DNA from: Litoribacter populi
GTDB lineage: Bacteria > Bacteroidota > Bacteroidia > Cytophagales > Cyclobacteriaceae
Reading direction: 5' to 3'
Length of the DNA stretch: 64,000 bases
Assembly: GCF_007483685.1 (NCBI RefSeq)
Contig: NZ_VMKN01000001.1
Coordinates: forward strand, 1-64,000
The notes under the pieces are model-generated. The model was not told the origin of the DNA, did not search any database, and saw only the letters and a program-made list of their open reading frames with translations. Below are positions 2,062-62,434 of the stretch, piece after piece; the stretch's first letter is position 1; each line of letters opens with the position of its first letter. The translations under genes and the position numbers were made by a program.

Positions 2062-2130
2062 CAACTCCCCCTTCGAAAGCCTGTCCCGAGTAGCTTTTCG
2101 CGGATCGGGAGGGGCAGGGGGGATGTCAGT
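2062..2130. repeat. CCCCCTTTGAA-family repeat with TCCCGA hairpin
   Basis: The copy reads ACTCCCCCTTCGAAAG, then the stem-loop TCCCGA (2084-2089) to TCGGGA (2105-2110), then GGGGCAGGGGGGATGTC. Other copies of this family (for example 46999-47030 and 51333-51360) lack the internal hairpin, which shows the hairpin is a separable module. Confidence 0.8.
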
Positions 2131-5892: not shown

Positions 5893-6277
5893 TTTGTTTA
5901 TTGTTTAAAGTTTAAAGATTAGGTTGTTGTCATGGTTGTCTGCTGTTCCGATGCTGCGCATCGAAAGGCGCTGTTGTCATGGTTGTCAGAGGGAGCATCA
6001 ATACCGGCCATTCTAGCCATTTGGTGCTTACCAGGTTTTTTAGCGCTCCATGTACGTCTGTGCCCGTTGTGCGAATGTCTCCGACTTCGCACCTTTAATT
6101 ATTCAGCCCCCAGCACTTTGAGACCTTCACAAGAGATCTCTCCCCACCCCGGCGGGCAGGCGCTCCGCTTCGCATAGTCCCGATTCGCTTTGCTGATCGG
6201 GACTATGCGAGTTGACGTGAGAAAAATGACGTGCCCAGCCATTTACGTAAATAGAACAATGACAACCCTGACAACTA
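5893..6277. repeat. GACAAC-family repeat unit and long hairpin
   Basis: No gene is supported here. The stretch contains GTTGTCATGGTTGTC motifs at 5928-5944 and 5972-5988 around a CGATGCTGCGCATCG hairpin, an unrelated middle part, and a GACAACCCTGACAAC end at 6258-6273. Within it, CGCATAGTCCCGAT (6171-6184) pairs exactly with ATCGGGACTATGCG (6196-6209), a 14-bp stem with an 11-nt loop. Confidence 0.7.
6171..6209. repeat. Perfect 14-bp stem-loop carrying the TCCCGA/TCGGGA core
   Basis: CGCATAGTCCCGAT at 6171-6184 and its exact reverse complement at 6196-6209 enclose an 11-nt loop. The inner TCCCGA/TCGGGA pair is the same core found in at least ten other intergenic elements of this window. Confidence 0.85.
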
Positions 6278-45538: not shown

Positions 45539-46300
45539 ATTAAGTTACCTGCATTCACCAATAGGAAAACTAACCGCAAAGAAAAGAAAGAAATCCCAAA
45601 GTATGTTAAGCCTTTAGTTTTATTAACTTAATACGAATAGCCATCTCGGCTGTACTGCTCAGTTACTTCCAATTTTAACCGCGGAACTTGTCCTGCGATG
45701 CTTGCGGATCGGGAAGACGCAGACCCGCGAAGGCCTTTGTGCCCTTATTTTTTCTTTGTGGCCCTTGGTGCCTCTTTTATTGCCGCGATGAAGCCTTTGT
45801 GTAACTTCTTTTTAAACTTAGTGTCCTAGTGACCAATTTGTTTCCGTCCTGACATCCCCCCTACCCCCTTCGAAGGGGGAATTACTTAGAGTAGTGCCCT
45901 TAGTGCCCCATTTATCGCCGCGTCGGGGGAACTCTGCGAAACTCCATTTTGAACTCTGTGATACTCCGTGTCCCTTTTCACCAACATCGCACAGCTTCGC
46001 CCCGTCGGTCACAGCTTCAGCTGTCCTAGCAAGGTTAACGATTCAAGCAAAAATGTAGTATGGAGAATAGTTGCGCAGTAAAATTCCTGCAAATTTAACC
46101 ATAGTTATCCTAAATTGCAGGTTTGAAGCCGTTTATTTATATCCATGAGAAACTGACTCACAGCTAATTGCTTATCAGCTTTGCATTTAGCCTCTTCATA
46201 TACTGAAAAAAGCCGTTTGAAAGAAACCCACCCCAAATCACTTAAACTTTAAACCATAAGCCTTTAACCATTTTACTCGCACGTAATACCTAATTATTCC
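45539..46300. repeat. Repeat-rich gap upstream of the operon
   Basis: No gene is supported. It contains kindred fragments such as GTGCCCTTATTTTTTC, GTAACTTCTTTTTAAACTTA and GTGTCCTAGTGACC (45730-45835), a CCCCCT family unit (CATCCCCCCTACCCCCTTCG, 45851-45880), and TTAAACTTTAAACCATAAGC sequence toward 46260. Confidence 0.6.
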
Positions 46301-46988: not shown

Positions 46989-47323
46989 CGATAACAATTC
47001 CCCCTTAGAAGGGGGGCAGGGGGGATGTCAAACGAAGATAATTGGTCACAAAGTCACACTAAGTTCGACACAAAGGAGTCGCACAAAGTAAAAGTAAATA
47101 GACCCGACAGTCACCAAGTAATCCCCCCGATGTTTAACTAGCCTCTTGGGAGGACACAAAAACGGAAAATTATAAACGAGGAATTAGGAATGTGATGAGA
47201 ATGAATTTTGAAAATTTAAACTTCGTGCGACTTCTTTAAAACTTCTTCGACTTAGTGACCTATTGAAAAATTTCGCTGCGGTCATTGCGTATTCTTTGCG
47301 CTCGCTGCGAGAAAACTTATAAT
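46989..47323. repeat. CCCCCTTAGAAG unit and kindred repeats
   Basis: The unit ATTCCCCCTTAGAAGGGGGGCAGGGGGGATGTC (46997-47029) is a hairpin-free copy of the family. After it come GTCACAAAGTCACACTAAGT and TCGCACAAAGT fragments and the TGCGACTTCTTTAAAACTTC unit (47225-47245). No gene is seen before 47324. Confidence 0.65.
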
Positions 47324-48952: not shown

Positions 48953-49475
48953 AGAGGTCACTAAGTCGCACTAAGTTAAAAAGAAGTCGCAAAAAGAAAA
49001 GGACACTAAGGACACGAAGAAAAAATAAGGGCACGAAGGAAAACCTCGACACGGACCCAACGTCGTCACCTCGACTGGAGCTTGTGCGGAATGCTTGCCC
49101 GCCGGGGCGGGAAGAGGTCTAGAAGCTTCGCACACTTGTCCCGAGGAGCTTTTCGCGGATCGGGAAAGAAAAAGGGCACAATGGCCACGAAGAAAAAGAA
49201 GGACACAAAGAAAGGCACGGCCTCGATGCAGAAGTAAAGGGACACAGAGTAAATAAACTCACACAAATACCCACAGGTGGAATCTGTGTAAATCTGTGCA
49301 ATCCGTGGTGAGTTATAAAGACAAATGCGGGCACGAAGGGCACAATGGAAAAAGGTGTTGCAATGTCGCACTCTTCTCCTGAGTAGCGCAGCGGATCGGG
49401 AAAGTCCTAGACACGGCGAGATTATCTTTTTGGCAGGAAGGCTAAAAGAGACGATAAAATGAGAAATGGGCGCTC
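48953..49475. repeat. Repeat-rich gap between the two wzi genes
   Basis: No gene is supported. It contains several AAGTCGCAC, GGGCACGAAG and AAAAGGACAC stretches, and a TCCCGA (49139-49144) to TCGGGA (49160-49165) stem-loop in a GACACTTGTCCC...AAAGAAAAAGG context, a host sequence quite different from other copies. Confidence 0.6.
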
Positions 49476-51317: not shown

Positions 51318-51909
51318 CCACGGAACCAAATCCCCCTTGGAAGGGGGCAGGGGGGATGTAGTCACGTACTAAAATAGTCACTAAGAAAAGGTCTATCCCT
51401 CATCTCCAAACGTAAGTAAGCCCCTGCTGGGCGACAAGGTAGAACCCTGACAACTATCGTCAAGAGGAGATACAAACCGACCGCAGGGAGTGTTTGTCTC
51501 CTCTTGACGAACAACAATGACAACACTGACAACCACGTAACCGACGTGGCAACAACGTTATGCCAAGTCTCTGACTTGCGCATCCTGAGTCGAGAGTCTC
51601 TGACTCGGGCAGATGAGAAAGTCATTTTTAAGCGCTATAACAGAACCCTGACAACTATCGTCAAGAGGAGATACAAACCGACCGCAGGGAGTGTTTGCCT
51701 CCTCTTGACGAACAACAATGACAACACTGACAACCACGTAACCGACGTGGCAAACAATTGGGTACAAGGGGGAGGTAAAAGGAACATGAAGAGCCCGAAG
51801 GGTGGCACCTGGCAACCTTCATTTTTAAACCTTAAACCTTAAACAATGCCGCAGGCATGATAACCATGGCGAAGCTCCTTAATCCGTTAATCCCATCAAC
51901 CATTAAACC
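51318..51909. repeat. Two copies of a GACAAC-family unit 201 bp apart
   Basis: Bases 51441-51552 and 51642-51753 are nearly identical. Each has AGAACCCTGACAACTA, a 13-bp stem CGTCAAGAGGAGA...TCTCCTCTTGACG, AACAACAATGACAACACTG, and a CCACGTAACCGACGTGG hairpin. Between them, 51556-51583 is the reverse complement of the GATGCGCAAGTCAGAGACTT sequence at 61013-61040. A CCCCCTTGGAAG unit (51332-51360) precedes. No gene is seen. Confidence 0.75.
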
Positions 51910-53013: not shown

Positions 53014-53469
53014 GACTCACCGCAAAGACACCAAGAAGCGCAAAGCAAGTTTGTTTTCTTTGCGATTCTTCAAAAACTTTGCGGTGAACCTTTTTTTCAA
53101 TCTGTACCTTTGTGTCCAATTTTTATTAAAGGGGGAATTAGCTTCGTTAGTGACCCATTTCTTCCTCGTCGAGGCTCTGTGTAATCCGAGTAATCTGTGT
53201 TTTTCCCTAAAAAAATCTAACCGCAAAGACGCCAAGGGACGCAAAGCAAATTTTTTCTTCGCGCTTCTTCAAAAACTTTGCGGTTGAAAATTGGTAATCA
53301 CTCTGTGCCTCTGGTGCTCTGTGGTTATTTTTTCTTTGCGCTCCTTCAAAAAACTTTGCGGTGAACTTTTTATTCTCTCTGTGCCTCTGAGTCTCTGCGG
53401 TTATTTTTTCTACATCAACCGCCTTTGGCTCAAATTTGGTGGTTTTCAATCCCAAAAACCAACTATATC
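53014..53469. repeat. CCGCAAAG/CTTTGCGG hairpin repeats, three copies
   Basis: CACCGCAAAG (53018-53027) pairs with CTTTGCGGTG (53077-53086). The second copy AACCGCAAAG (53219-53228) pairs with CTTTGCGGTT (about 53276-53285). A third half copy, TTTGCGCTCCTTCAAAAAAC with TTTGCGGTGAAC, lies near 53334-53369. Each has a shorter GCGCAAAG/CTTTGCG inside. No gene is seen. Confidence 0.75.
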
Positions 53470-54701: not shown

Positions 54702-55679
54702 ATGCTAATCACAAAACAAACATGCATTTTTTTAGCCGGACACAAGGGGATGGTCGGTTCAGCGGTTCATCGGGCTTTGAGGGCAGGTGGCTATGAAAAT
54801 ATTGTGGCTATCTCCAGCAGCGAACTCGACCTTCGCAACCAATCTCAAGTACAAAGCTTTTTCAATGAATATAGTCCTGAGGTAGTTATTGATGCCGCAG
54901 CAAGAGTAGGTGGCATTTTGGCGAACAGGGATTATCCGTACCAGTTTCTCATGGACAACATGATGATCCAAAACAACCTGATCGATGCCTCTCTGAAGTC
55001 AGGTGTTGAGAAATTCATCTTTCTCGGTTCATCCTGCATCTACCCCAAACACGCTCCCCAGCCCCTGAAGGAAGAATACCTCCTTTCCGGTTCACTGGAG
55101 GAAACTAATGAGTGGTATGCTCTGGCAAAGATCGCCGGGGTAAAAGCCTGTGAGGCTATAAGAAAGCAATATGGTAAGGAATACGTCAGCCTTATGCCGA
55201 CAAACCTTTACGGTCCCCACGACAATTTCGATCTCCAAACCTCCCACGTCCTCCCCGCCATGATCCGAAAGTTTCATGAAGCCAAGGTGAAAGGTGAGTT
55301 TGGCGAAATTAAGGTTAGTGAGCCTGTCGAACTATGGGGATCAGGAAACCCCCTACGGGAGTTTTTGCATGTGGATGACCTGGCGAGTGCAGTTGTCTTT
55401 GCCCTGGAAAACACCCTGCCCGAATCCCTATATAACGTAGGAACCGGCAAGGACCTATCCATAAAAGATTTAGCCCTAATGGTCCAGCGCCTCACCGCCC
55501 ACCAAGGCCCCATCCACTTTGACCCCACAAAGCCAGATGGTACGCCGAGGAAACTTCTTGATGTAAGCAGGTTGAGTAATGCTGGCTGGAAGGCGGAGAT
55601 TGAACTGGAGGAGGGAATTAGGAGGACATATGAGTGGTATGTGGAGAATATAGGAAGGGTAAAAGAAGTGAAGTTGTAG
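54702..55679 (+). CDS. fcl: GDP-L-fucose synthase
   Basis: The 325-residue extended SDR protein has G13-H-K-G-M-V-G19, L-G-S-S-C-I-Y-P near 108-115 and catalytic Y139-A-L-A-K143, with M-P-T-N-L-Y-G-P-H-D-N-F following as in fcl/wcaG products. It turns GDP-4-keto-6-deoxymannose into GDP-L-fucose with NADPH. The partner gmd gene is at 56374; a DUF559 element lies between them, apparently inserted in an original fcl-gmd pair. Confidence 0.93.
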   Translation: MLITKQTCIFLAGHKGMVGSAVHRALRAGGYENIVAISSSELDLRNQSQVQSFFNEYSPEVVIDAAARVGGILANRDYPYQFLMDNMMIQNNLIDASLKSGVEKFIFLGSSCIYPKHAPQPLKEEYLLSGSLEETNEWYALAKIAGVKACEAIRKQYGKEYVSLMPTNLYGPHDNFDLQTSHVLPAMIRKFHEAKVKGEFGEIKVSEPVELWGSGNPLREFLHVDDLASAVVFALENTLPESLYNVGTGKDLSIKDLALMVQRLTAHQGPIHFDPTKPDGTPRKLLDVSRLSNAGWKAEIELEEGIRRTYEWYVENIGRVKEVKL

Positions 55680-55696
55680 GTTTAAGGCCGCGTACA

Positions 55697-56320
55697 ATTC
55701 CCCCTTTGAAAGCCTGTCCCGAGGAGCTTTTCGCGGATCGGGAGGGGCAGGGGGATGTCAGGTAGAGATTAAAGGAAGTAATCAAACAACTTTTTATAAA
55801 CCATGCGAAAAAACTTTTTACCATATGACCCAAAATTGAAAGCCTTGGCTCGGGAACTTCGAAATAACAGCACTTTATCCGAAGTTTTACTCTGGATGCA
55901 AATCAAGAATAAAGCCTTTGGCGTCGAGTTTCATCGACAGGTGCCCATTAATAACTTTATAGTCGATTTTTATTGTCATGAGTTAATGTTGGCTATAGAA
56001 ATCGATGGCAATAGCCATGAATATGAAGATGTCGCTGTAAATGATATTCGCAGACAACGTATCCTCGAAAATTTAGGAGTCCGTTTTCTTAGATTAAGTG
56101 ACATAGCTGTGAAAAGAAACATGAATGATTGTCTGGATATAATTTGGGATAAGATTGAGGAGCTCAGACTCAACTCCCCCTTTGAAAGCCTGTCCCGAGT
56201 AGCGAGGCGGATCGGGAGGGACGGGGTCACCAGACTCAACTCCCCCTTTGAAGGGGGCGGGGGGGATGTAGCAACGTAATTAACCCCTACTCAACATCCC
56301 CCTACCTTCAAAGGGGGAAT
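55697..56320. mobile_element. Putative gene-bearing palindromic element enclosing the DUF559 gene
   Basis: ATTCCCCCTTTGAA at 55697-55710 and its exact reverse complement at 56307-56320 bracket the DUF559 gene. Inside the left arm are a TCCCGA/TCGGGA stem-loop (55717-55743) and GGGGCAGGGGGATGT; the right arm has ACATCCCCCTACC. Two further direct copies of CAACTCCCCCTTTGAA (56170 and 56240) lie in the 3' end of the gene. No transposase is present; mobility is inferred from the symmetry. Confidence 0.45.
55803..56279 (+). CDS. DUF559 family endonuclease-like protein with repeat-derived tail
   Basis: Residues 1-121 are a full DUF559 domain (Vsr/PD-(D/E)xK-like nuclease fold): A-R-E-L-R-x-N-x-T-x-x-E near 16-27, F-x-R-Q-x-P-I near 43-49, the likely active site D55-F...E66-I-D68-G, and V-R-F-L-R-L-S-D at 93-100. 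The final 37 residues (R-L-N-S-P-F-E-S-L-S-R... and N-S-P-F-E-G-G-G-G-D-V) are translated repeat: two CCCCCTTTGAA units and one TCCCGA hairpin. The family normally ends where the repeat begins. The gene is enclosed by inverted copies of the same repeat. Nuclease activity is predicted from family only. Confidence 0.82.
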   Translation: MRKNFLPYDPKLKALARELRNNSTLSEVLLWMQIKNKAFGVEFHRQVPINNFIVDFYCHELMLAIEIDGNSHEYEDVAVNDIRRQRILENLGVRFLRLSDIAVKRNMNDCLDIIWDKIEELRLNSPFESLSRVARRIGRDGVTRLNSPFEGGGGDVAT

Positions 56321-56373
56321 AGTTTACGTGAACGTCCGCGCAGCGGACAAATAAACCTTAAACTTTTTCAAAC

Positions 56374-57513
56374 ATGAAAACCGCATTAATAACAGGAATC
56401 ACCGGCCAAGACGGCGCTTATCTTGCCGAGCTACTTTTAGAAAAGGGCTATATGGTCCATGGGATAAAACGTAGGGCATCGCTGATCAATACCGACAGGA
56501 TTGATCACCTTTACCAGGACCCTCACGAACAGGATCCCAGACTCATACTCCACTATGGGGATATGACGGACTCGATGAACCTTACCAGGATCATTCAGGA
56601 AACCAAACCCGACGAAATCTACAACCTTGCCGCAATGAGCCATGTGAAGGTGAGCTTTGATATCCCGGAATACACAGCCAATGCTGACGGGATAGGGACC
56701 CTGCGGATATTGGAGGCTGTCAGACTCCTGGGTATGGAGAAGAAAACAAAAGTTTATCAGGCCTCTACCTCGGAACTCTATGGCCTGGTCCAAGCCGTTC
56801 CCCAAAGCGAAACCACGCCTTTCTACCCGCGTTCACCATACGCGGTTGCAAAACTTTACGCATACTGGATCACCGTAAACTATCGTGAGGCCTATGGGAT
56901 GTTTGCCTGCAACGGGATATTGTTCAACCATGAGTCTCCGCTGAGAGGCGAGACTTTTGTGACCAGAAAAATCACCCGGGCAGTCGCGCAGATTGCCTTA
57001 GGCCAACAGGAGACTTTATATATCGGAAACCTCGACGCCCAGCGTGATTGGGGGCATGCCAAGGACTATGTAGAGGCAATGTGGAGAATTCTGCAGCAGG
57101 ACGAACCCGAGGATTTTGTCATCGCTACCGGAATCACCACCAAGGTCCGAGACTTTATCAACATGGCTTTCGCCCATGTTGGCTTTACCCTGAGATGGGA
57201 AGGTGAAGGCGTAGAAGAGGTTGGAATTCTTGCAGCCATTGATGAAAAGAAGTTCGAAGAAGTCAGCGGCCTCCCCTTCGACCCCCTAAACCTTAAACTC
57301 TTAAACCTCAAACTCGTCCAAGTGGACCCCCGCTACTTCCGCCCCACCGAAGTCGACCTCCTCATCGGTGATCCCACCAAATCCCGCGACCGTCTCGGCT
57401 GGCAACCCAAATATGACCTCCCTACCCTGGTAGAAGAAATGGTCATTTCCGATTTGATCTGGTACCGGGATAATATGCACATGGTGAATCAAAAGCCGCA
57501 TTTTGAGGATTAA
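56374..57513 (+). CDS. gmd: GDP-mannose 4,6-dehydratase with repeat-like in-frame insertion
   Basis: The 379-residue enzyme has G8-I-T-G-Q-D-G14, catalytic S-T-S-E-L-Y-G near 131-137 and Y156-A-V-A-K160, and [12 protein letters not shown] near 317-328, as in gmd. It makes GDP-4-keto-6-deoxymannose for fcl. Residues 304-314 ([11 protein letters not shown]) come from bases 57283-57315, which read CCCTAAACCTTAAACTC plus a near repeat, the same words as the intergenic TTAAACC repeats. Homologues usually have a few residues there, so this looks like a repeat read in frame. The enzyme probably tolerates it. Confidence 0.93.
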
Positions 57514-62023: not shown

Positions 62024-62434
62024 ATGGTGATTGTCTAAAAGTAATCAAGATTGAGATTACAAAAAAAGAGCCAAATGGGAAGTGAGAAGGACGAAATACG
62101 AGGTACGAAGGGAAAAATTCCTGCTCTCAGGAGCACCCCGACTTGGTGACCATTTATTTTCGTCTCTCTCATCCCTTTCCCGATCCGCTGCGCTACTCGG
62201 GACAAGTGTGCTCCTTCTTTCCCTTCGTGCCCTTTGCGCCCCCTTTTCGTCACGTCGAGCCCACCTTCATTAAACTTTGTGCGACTTCTTTTCAAACTTC
62301 GAGCGACTTGGTGGCTATTTTAATCCGCGAAGGAGTTTATCTTCAACATCCCCCTGCCCCCCTTCTAAGGGGGAATCGTATGGTACAACAAAAAACTGGT
62401 CAAACCTTTGCTAATAAATAGAAAAGCTTATTTC
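62024..62434. repeat. Repeat mosaic between divergent OMP genes
   Basis: Contains a GAAGTGAGAAGGACGAAATACG fragment, TCCCGA (62178-62183) to TCGGGA (62197-62202) in a GTGTGCTCCTTCTTTCCC context, a GTGCGACTTCTTTTCAAACTTC unit and CATCCCCCTGCCCCCCTTCTAAGGGGGAAT (62347-62377). No gene is seen. Confidence 0.7.

Follow-up and report, generated by a model that had tools for sequence, protein, structure and literature searches.

A DUF559 nuclease gene bracketed by palindromic repeats in Litoribacter populi points to a possible mobile DNA element of an undescribed kind

The analysis of a 64,000-nucleotide stretch of the Litoribacter populi genome (contig NZ_VMKN01000001.1, positions 1-64,000, hereafter the window; genome size, 4.5 Mb) revealed, between fcl and gmd, an intact DUF559 gene around which a palindromic unit occurs four times. 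We propose, with a probability of about 0.6, that this locus is one case of a widespread gene-plus-palindrome unit, whose homing-like spread would be driven by the putative nuclease. Because many bacterial phyla show this same association of gene and palindrome, a type of mobile DNA not described so far may be involved. The locus comprises the following features.

54702..55679, + strand: flanking fcl-like epimerase gene
55689..56328, no strand: complete element, lying in the fcl-gmd gap and bounded by the CG tips of unit 1 and the inverted unit 4
55689..55765, + strand: repeat unit 1, long form with an inserted TCCCGA hairpin (core 55699-55758; folds with z -3.25)
55803..56279, + strand: gene for a PD-(D/E)XK/Vsr-like nuclease of the DUF559 family (PF04480); 158 aa, with the domain spanning residues 11-118
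56166..56276, + strand: C-terminal 37 codons made of repeat (residues 122-158), unconserved in the congener
56166..56229, + strand: repeat unit 2, long form without the GGGGGATGT end, within the reading frame
56231..56276, + strand: repeat unit 3, short form (core 56241-56269), an exact pattern match
56291..56328, - strand: repeat unit 4, degenerate inverted copy
56374..57513, + strand: flanking gmd (GDP-mannose 4,6-dehydratase) gene

The bounds of the element were taken from the tips of 37 aligned unit copies, and homology to the congener (genome G273) ends with ...GGTTTAAGGC, directly before CGCGTACAATTCCCCC, to resume near position 56332. Three claims of the initial annotation of this DNA held at this locus: ATTCCCCCTTTGAA at 55697-55710 is exactly inverted on the other side of the gene as its reverse complement TTCAAAGGGGGAAT at 56307-56320, the predicted nuclease belongs to DUF559, and the last 37 codons consist of two further units, one of which holds a TCCCGA hairpin. 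Moreover, units 3 and 4 fold together into a single large hairpin (z -3.8).

The product of the open reading frame at 55803-56279 matches PF04480 with an E value of 6e-25 and 87.7 bits, against a curated cutoff of 20.6, and its other family matches are to related restriction-endonuclease-like families. Residues D55, E66, D68, and D81 are shared by all of 56 cross-phylum sequences and H72 by nearly all, and the window protein has every one of them. The AlphaFold (AF2) model has a mean pLDDT of 93; its nearest solved folds by Foldseek are the Neisseria endonuclease-like structure 3hrl, then the homing endonuclease I-Bth0305I (3r3p; E 3e-4, probability 1.00), and then, more weakly, Vsr (1vsr; E 0.025), so that the modeled fold is closest to Vsr/EDxHD-type nucleases. 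The genome has one true DUF559 gene; a second match (L002) was discarded, as it resembles a Vsr-type mismatch endonuclease and has no repeats. The translated repeat, which the initial annotation took as part of the architecture of the element, did not stand as such: the congener protein terminates with IEELHGR, ahead of the repeats, and a pyrimidine-purine palindrome lies within the coding tail at only 17 of 170 loci. The tail is thus not a design feature, and we no longer consider it a functional part of the protein; as judged from these sequences, it is a by-product of a unit sitting at the stop codon.

The repeat unit consists of TCCCCC-TTNGAA-GGGGG, a short spacer of n nucleotides, and then GGGGGATGT. 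Exact full units number 23 in the 4.5-Mb genome and 0 in a reversed control, and about 20 of the 23 lie far from any DUF559 gene; in many other genomes, too, the majority of units are distant from DUF559. Within the window, CCCCCTTTGAAGGGGG was matched 12 times with up to 3 mismatches versus 0.98 expected, a number never reached by shuffles. The tips are conserved among the 37 copies aligned from this genome and its congener, with CGNRNNCAAY before the C-run at the 5' end, ATGTNNNNACG after the second G-run, and GGGGGATGTNNNNACG as the 3' end. The window holds the following dispersed units.

2066..2126, + strand: long form, without a nuclease gene
45852..45880, - strand: short form, missing from the orthologous G273 gap
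46999..47028, + strand: short form; G273 homology stops at the CG tip of the unit
51331..51359, + strand: short form; G273 homology stops beside the CG tip of the unit
62346..62374, - strand: short form, missing from the orthologous G273 gap

The long form carries a TCCCGA hairpin that also stands alone in the window, and since TCCCGA...TCGGGA is dispersed independently (6177-6202, 49138-49165, and 62178-62203), the long unit is a nested composite. In other Bacteroidota, the framework TCCCCCTTNGAAGGGGG ... GGGGGATGT encloses an inner hairpin whose sequence varies freely: no two of 47 such segments are identical, while their longest stems average 7.3 bp versus 4.3 bp when shuffled. The inner hairpin thus appears to be retained as a fold, with free sequence. 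Two further dispersed repeat families were seen in the window, namely, CGTCCCGATGCGCCCCCGTGACTTTTGCTCGGCGCCAATCGGGACATCTACTTTCTAC in intergenic gaps (22774, 23496, 23784, 28967, and 54372) and an intergenic stretch at 53017-53455 with in-frame repeat peptides, e.g., ITAETQRHRE and NRKDAKGRKANFFFALLQKLCG.

The comparison with the congener showed that DUF559 occupies different locations in the two genomes. In G273, the gene (77 to 79% nucleotide identity) is found on a different contig, flanked on either side by several units of its own, and the corresponding site of the window genome has neither DUF559 nor the C5/G5 unit. Conversely, the fcl-gmd gap of G273 contains a four-helix-bundle (23S IVP-like) gene and no DUF559, so that the congener offers another gene there rather than an empty site. 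At two solitary units and at fcl-gmd, the congener homology breaks at the CG tip of the unit or within 1 to 2 bases of it. In addition, four solitary units have no counterpart in the orthologous G273 gaps. No clean empty site with both boundaries was found in any genome pair compared, nor was any target duplication. Altogether, the different loci and the breaks at the tips fit mobility of the element, but ordinary recombination could also relocate the whole block. A pseudogene is not claimed for the G273 copy, as its break falls on an N and a local duplication of the contig sequence; the N lies inside DUF559 (L242:5889-5895), between two copies of a stretch of about 130 bases, and looks like an assembly join rather than a frameshift.

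The initial annotation also held that the element splits an fcl-gmd pair. The neighbors were confirmed as fcl-like and gmd, and the two genes abut directly in one relative (G049), so an uninterrupted state exists. The split is, however, not specific to the DUF559 element, because in this family the junction variously holds an IVP gene (G111 and G273), a glycosyltransferase gene (G076), or nothing; it looks like an insertion hotspot. The IVP-like gene in this gap was located at C18:5012-5556 in G273 (L252) and at L183:2567-2951 in another relative, and the copy of G111 is surrounded by CGAACTCCGAACCC-type repeats.

A DUF559-family match was found in 222 of 395 Bacteroidota genomes, and a survey of these genes for adjacent repeats uncovered an association far wider than a single repeat. 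It covered up to 4 kb on each side of 97 standalone Bacteroidota genes (the best-scoring genes rather than all of them), together with a cross-phylum sample gathered with a degenerate DNA pattern, which gave 63 standalone genes for the flank test; the genome samples are phylogenetically uneven. Around the 97 Bacteroidota genes, C4TT-n-AAG4 reached 1.18/kb in the 150 bp upstream and 1.04/kb in the 150 bp downstream; its density was 1.6/kb in the coding tail but only 0.003 to 0.006/kb at distances beyond 500 bp. In a sequence-agnostic test, asking whether the upstream and downstream flanks have a common 16-mer, this was the case for 47 of 94 Bacteroidota genes versus 3 of 506 control window pairs (Fisher p 1e-39) and for 27 of 63 cross-phylum genes versus 3 of 419 (Fisher p 1e-23). 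Because the windows of this first control were random and not intergenic, we added matched gene controls, and at 14 nt the flanks were shared at 54 of 94 DUF559 loci, 3 of 30 IVP loci, and 1 of 24 ParE loci. Pure pyrimidine-purine palindromes, with an all-pyrimidine left arm and an all-purine right arm, reached 1.67/kb near DUF559 versus 0.023/kb far from it. Most DUF559-linked palindromes are of this pyrimidine-first type, which was found at none of the 30 IVP and none of the 24 ParE genes; purine-first palindromes were absent near DUF559 in a set of 170 genes and occurred twice in a further set of 27. At 62 of 168 standalone loci (about 37%), no pure pyrimidine-purine palindrome was detected in 300 bp. 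The palindromes form multicopy arrays with both orientations and can extend into coding tails. The coupling of DUF559 with palindromes thus recurs across phyla. Genome-level co-occurrence (33 of 37 repeat-bearing genomes with a DUF559-family match) was set aside, being confounded by phylogeny.

These surveys also bear on the earlier proposal of two gene-bearing master elements, one DUF559 and one IVP-like, behind two families of nonautonomous repeats. Its DUF559 part was supported, the gene being tied to the repeat and most copies being gene free; the IVP twin found little support, with shared flanks at 3/30 loci and pyrimidine-purine palindromes at 0/30. As a separate observation, three species of one genus (L176, L177, and L178) carry DUF559 at one common site where flanking palindromes are almost lacking; this copy may have settled or become domesticated. 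Small standalone GIY-YIG genes were also surveyed in 16 genomes, mostly of Proteobacteria, and their flanks share 14-mers at 8 of 13 loci (L462, L464, L472, L473, L474, L477, L481, and L484, with L474 and L484 being near-copies from the same genome) versus 1 of 11 large UvrC-like genes. The repeats there include CTGAGCTTGTCGAAG-type sequences, and in this small sample GIY-YIG may represent a second small-nuclease family with its own palindromes.

One reading of the palindromes at DUF559 is that they are terminators, insulators, or autoregulatory sites of the nuclease, selected at the gene and not mobile. Their position on both sides of the gene, the stability of two of the four folded stretches, which far exceeds that of shuffles, and the way they follow the protein phylogeny (see below) are what such sites would show, but the location of about 20 of the 23 exact units of this genome, and of the majority in many others, away from DUF559 is not. 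Moreover, units enter coding tails, form multicopy arrays in both orientations, and are missing from orthologous gaps of the congener, and we regard this regulatory role as improbable.

The palindrome and the nuclease co-diversify. Among nonsyntenic pairs, i.e., loci from different genomes without a common neighborhood, a 12-mer common to the flanks was found in 46% of pairs at 60 to 75% protein identity versus 7% of controls and in 9% of pairs at 40 to 45% identity versus 6% of controls. In the DUF559 protein tree, a quick one with many open forks, the gene of the window falls into a clade of five members (SH-aLRT 98) that covers at least Marinifilaceae and Flavobacteriaceae besides the family of L. 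populi itself, and CCCCCTTNNAAGGGGG palindromes occur in all five; the palindromes of other clades are of different types, e.g., CCCTCTCC..GGAGAGGG. This dependence of flank sharing on protein identity and these clade-specific palindromes indicate, therefore, that gene and palindrome travel or evolve together.

This result weighs against a second reading, in which the palindromes would be ordinary REP-like elements moved by another transposase, e.g., RAYT, and would have accumulated around a dispensable DUF559 gene. REP families without a linked transposase are known (PMC3733652), and the genome has three Y1_Tnp genes. Nevertheless, the C5/G5 unit was found near none of these three genes, which led us to reject RAYT as the mover in this genome; ParE and IVP, small genes that are equally dispensable, are not surrounded by palindromes; and the palindrome type tracks DUF559 kinship across bacterial families. 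We consider this passenger role unlikely, if somewhat less so than a regulatory one.

Our best reading is a mobile unit, REPtron-like or homing-like, in which a hydrolytic nuclease, and not a tyrosine transposase, would act on the palindromes. In the model that we propose, the unit is a standalone DUF559 gene flanked on both sides by a lineage-specific palindromic repeat, of which solitary copies are scattered genome-wide; the repeat consists of a pyrimidine arm, a loop, and a purine arm, often followed by a second hairpin and a second G-run. The DUF559 protein would recognize its own palindrome, extruded as a hairpin or a cruciform, and cut there, and host repair of the break would then copy in DNA that bears the repeat and may or may not include the gene. 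PD-(D/E)XK enzymes hydrolyze DNA and do not join ends, and because of this we favor such a homing-like break-and-copy process over RAYT-type strand transfer. The sequences thus show that gene and repeat are coupled in many phyla, that they co-diversify, and that the gene lies at different places in two congeners, whereas catalysis and mobilization by the DUF559 nuclease are inferred.

The same fold could point to a function for the host, DUF559 being a hairpin-processing or mismatch-repair nuclease that limits or repairs palindromes and coexists with them without any transfer. Besides the Vsr-like fold, a Caulobacter study argues in this direction, as it describes VsrA with a DUF559 domain and proposes a mismatch-repair role for it (PMC12907096). 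Such a function leaves unexplained, however, why the repeat physically flanks the gene and why the gene has different locations in the two congeners, and we judge it very improbable, the least likely of the three alternatives to nuclease-driven spread.

Beyond this locus, it is about an even bet that standalone DUF559 genes encode the enzymes so far missing for a large class of palindromic repeats found across phyla, each clade spreading its own pyrimidine-purine palindrome through putative hairpin cutting and copying by host repair, and that they constitute an unrecognized selfish element beside REPtrons and homing endonucleases. According to a REP survey, no mobilizing enzyme is known for one of the two big REP superfamilies, the CGTC-tagged REPs have no dedicated transposase, and many untagged palindromes are unexplained (PMC3733652). 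A nuclease family that is tied to palindromes physically and phylogenetically offers a concrete candidate for a mobilizing enzyme and a reason for the existence of these palindromes; matched nuclease-palindrome pairs can be tested in vitro, and one of the commoner bacterial nuclease families of "unknown function" gains a working hypothesis. The open-access literature that we consulted contains no description of a link between DUF559 and repeats, and an account may exist elsewhere; independently, a Legionella study reports DUF559-bearing repeated segments as hot spots of intragenomic recombination (PMC12308824).

Several known systems share part of these features. The fold family is that of the very-short-patch-repair endonuclease Vsr, but no linked cytosine methyltransferase was seen at the DUF559 locus, and a separate Vsr-like gene lies at position 2629952 of the genome. 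The EDxHD homing endonuclease I-Bth0305I, the second-best match among solved folds, is encoded by a selfish nuclease gene, as the DUF559 protein would be, whereas the DUF559 gene lies outside any intron or intein and is flanked by palindromes that are also dispersed. Rickettsia palindromic elements resemble the unit in that they are translated in frame, either inside genes or at their ends (PMC3733652), but the translated tail described here is incidental and tied to a nuclease gene. CGTC-tagged REPs are also dispersed short palindromes with no linked tyrosine transposase, sometimes within genes and also in Bacteroidetes; by their published description, they have a CGTC end, an 8- to 9-bp stem starting with AT pairs, a 4- to 5-nt loop, and a CCA tail (PMC3733652). 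Compared with this description, the unit differs by its C5 stem, second G-run, and ATGT end, and its consensus has neither the CGTC end, the AT stem base, the 4- to 5-nt loop, nor the CCA tail. A further parallel is the REPtron (RAYT with GTAG-tagged REPs/REPINs), where palindromic units of both orientations likewise flank a small gene for a DNA-processing enzyme and many solitary unit copies lie elsewhere, intergenic and sometimes within genes. The enzyme here is a PD-(D/E)XK/Vsr-like hydrolase, whereas that of REPtrons is an HUH tyrosine enzyme, and the unit has pyrimidine-purine arms and two G-runs, to which many genera add a second, variable hairpin. The gene between the repeats has no Y1_Tnp match and the ends of the 37 aligned units have no GTAG, so that, with both the HUH enzyme and the GTAG tag absent, the DUF559 unit is not a REPtron by membership, but it may work like one.
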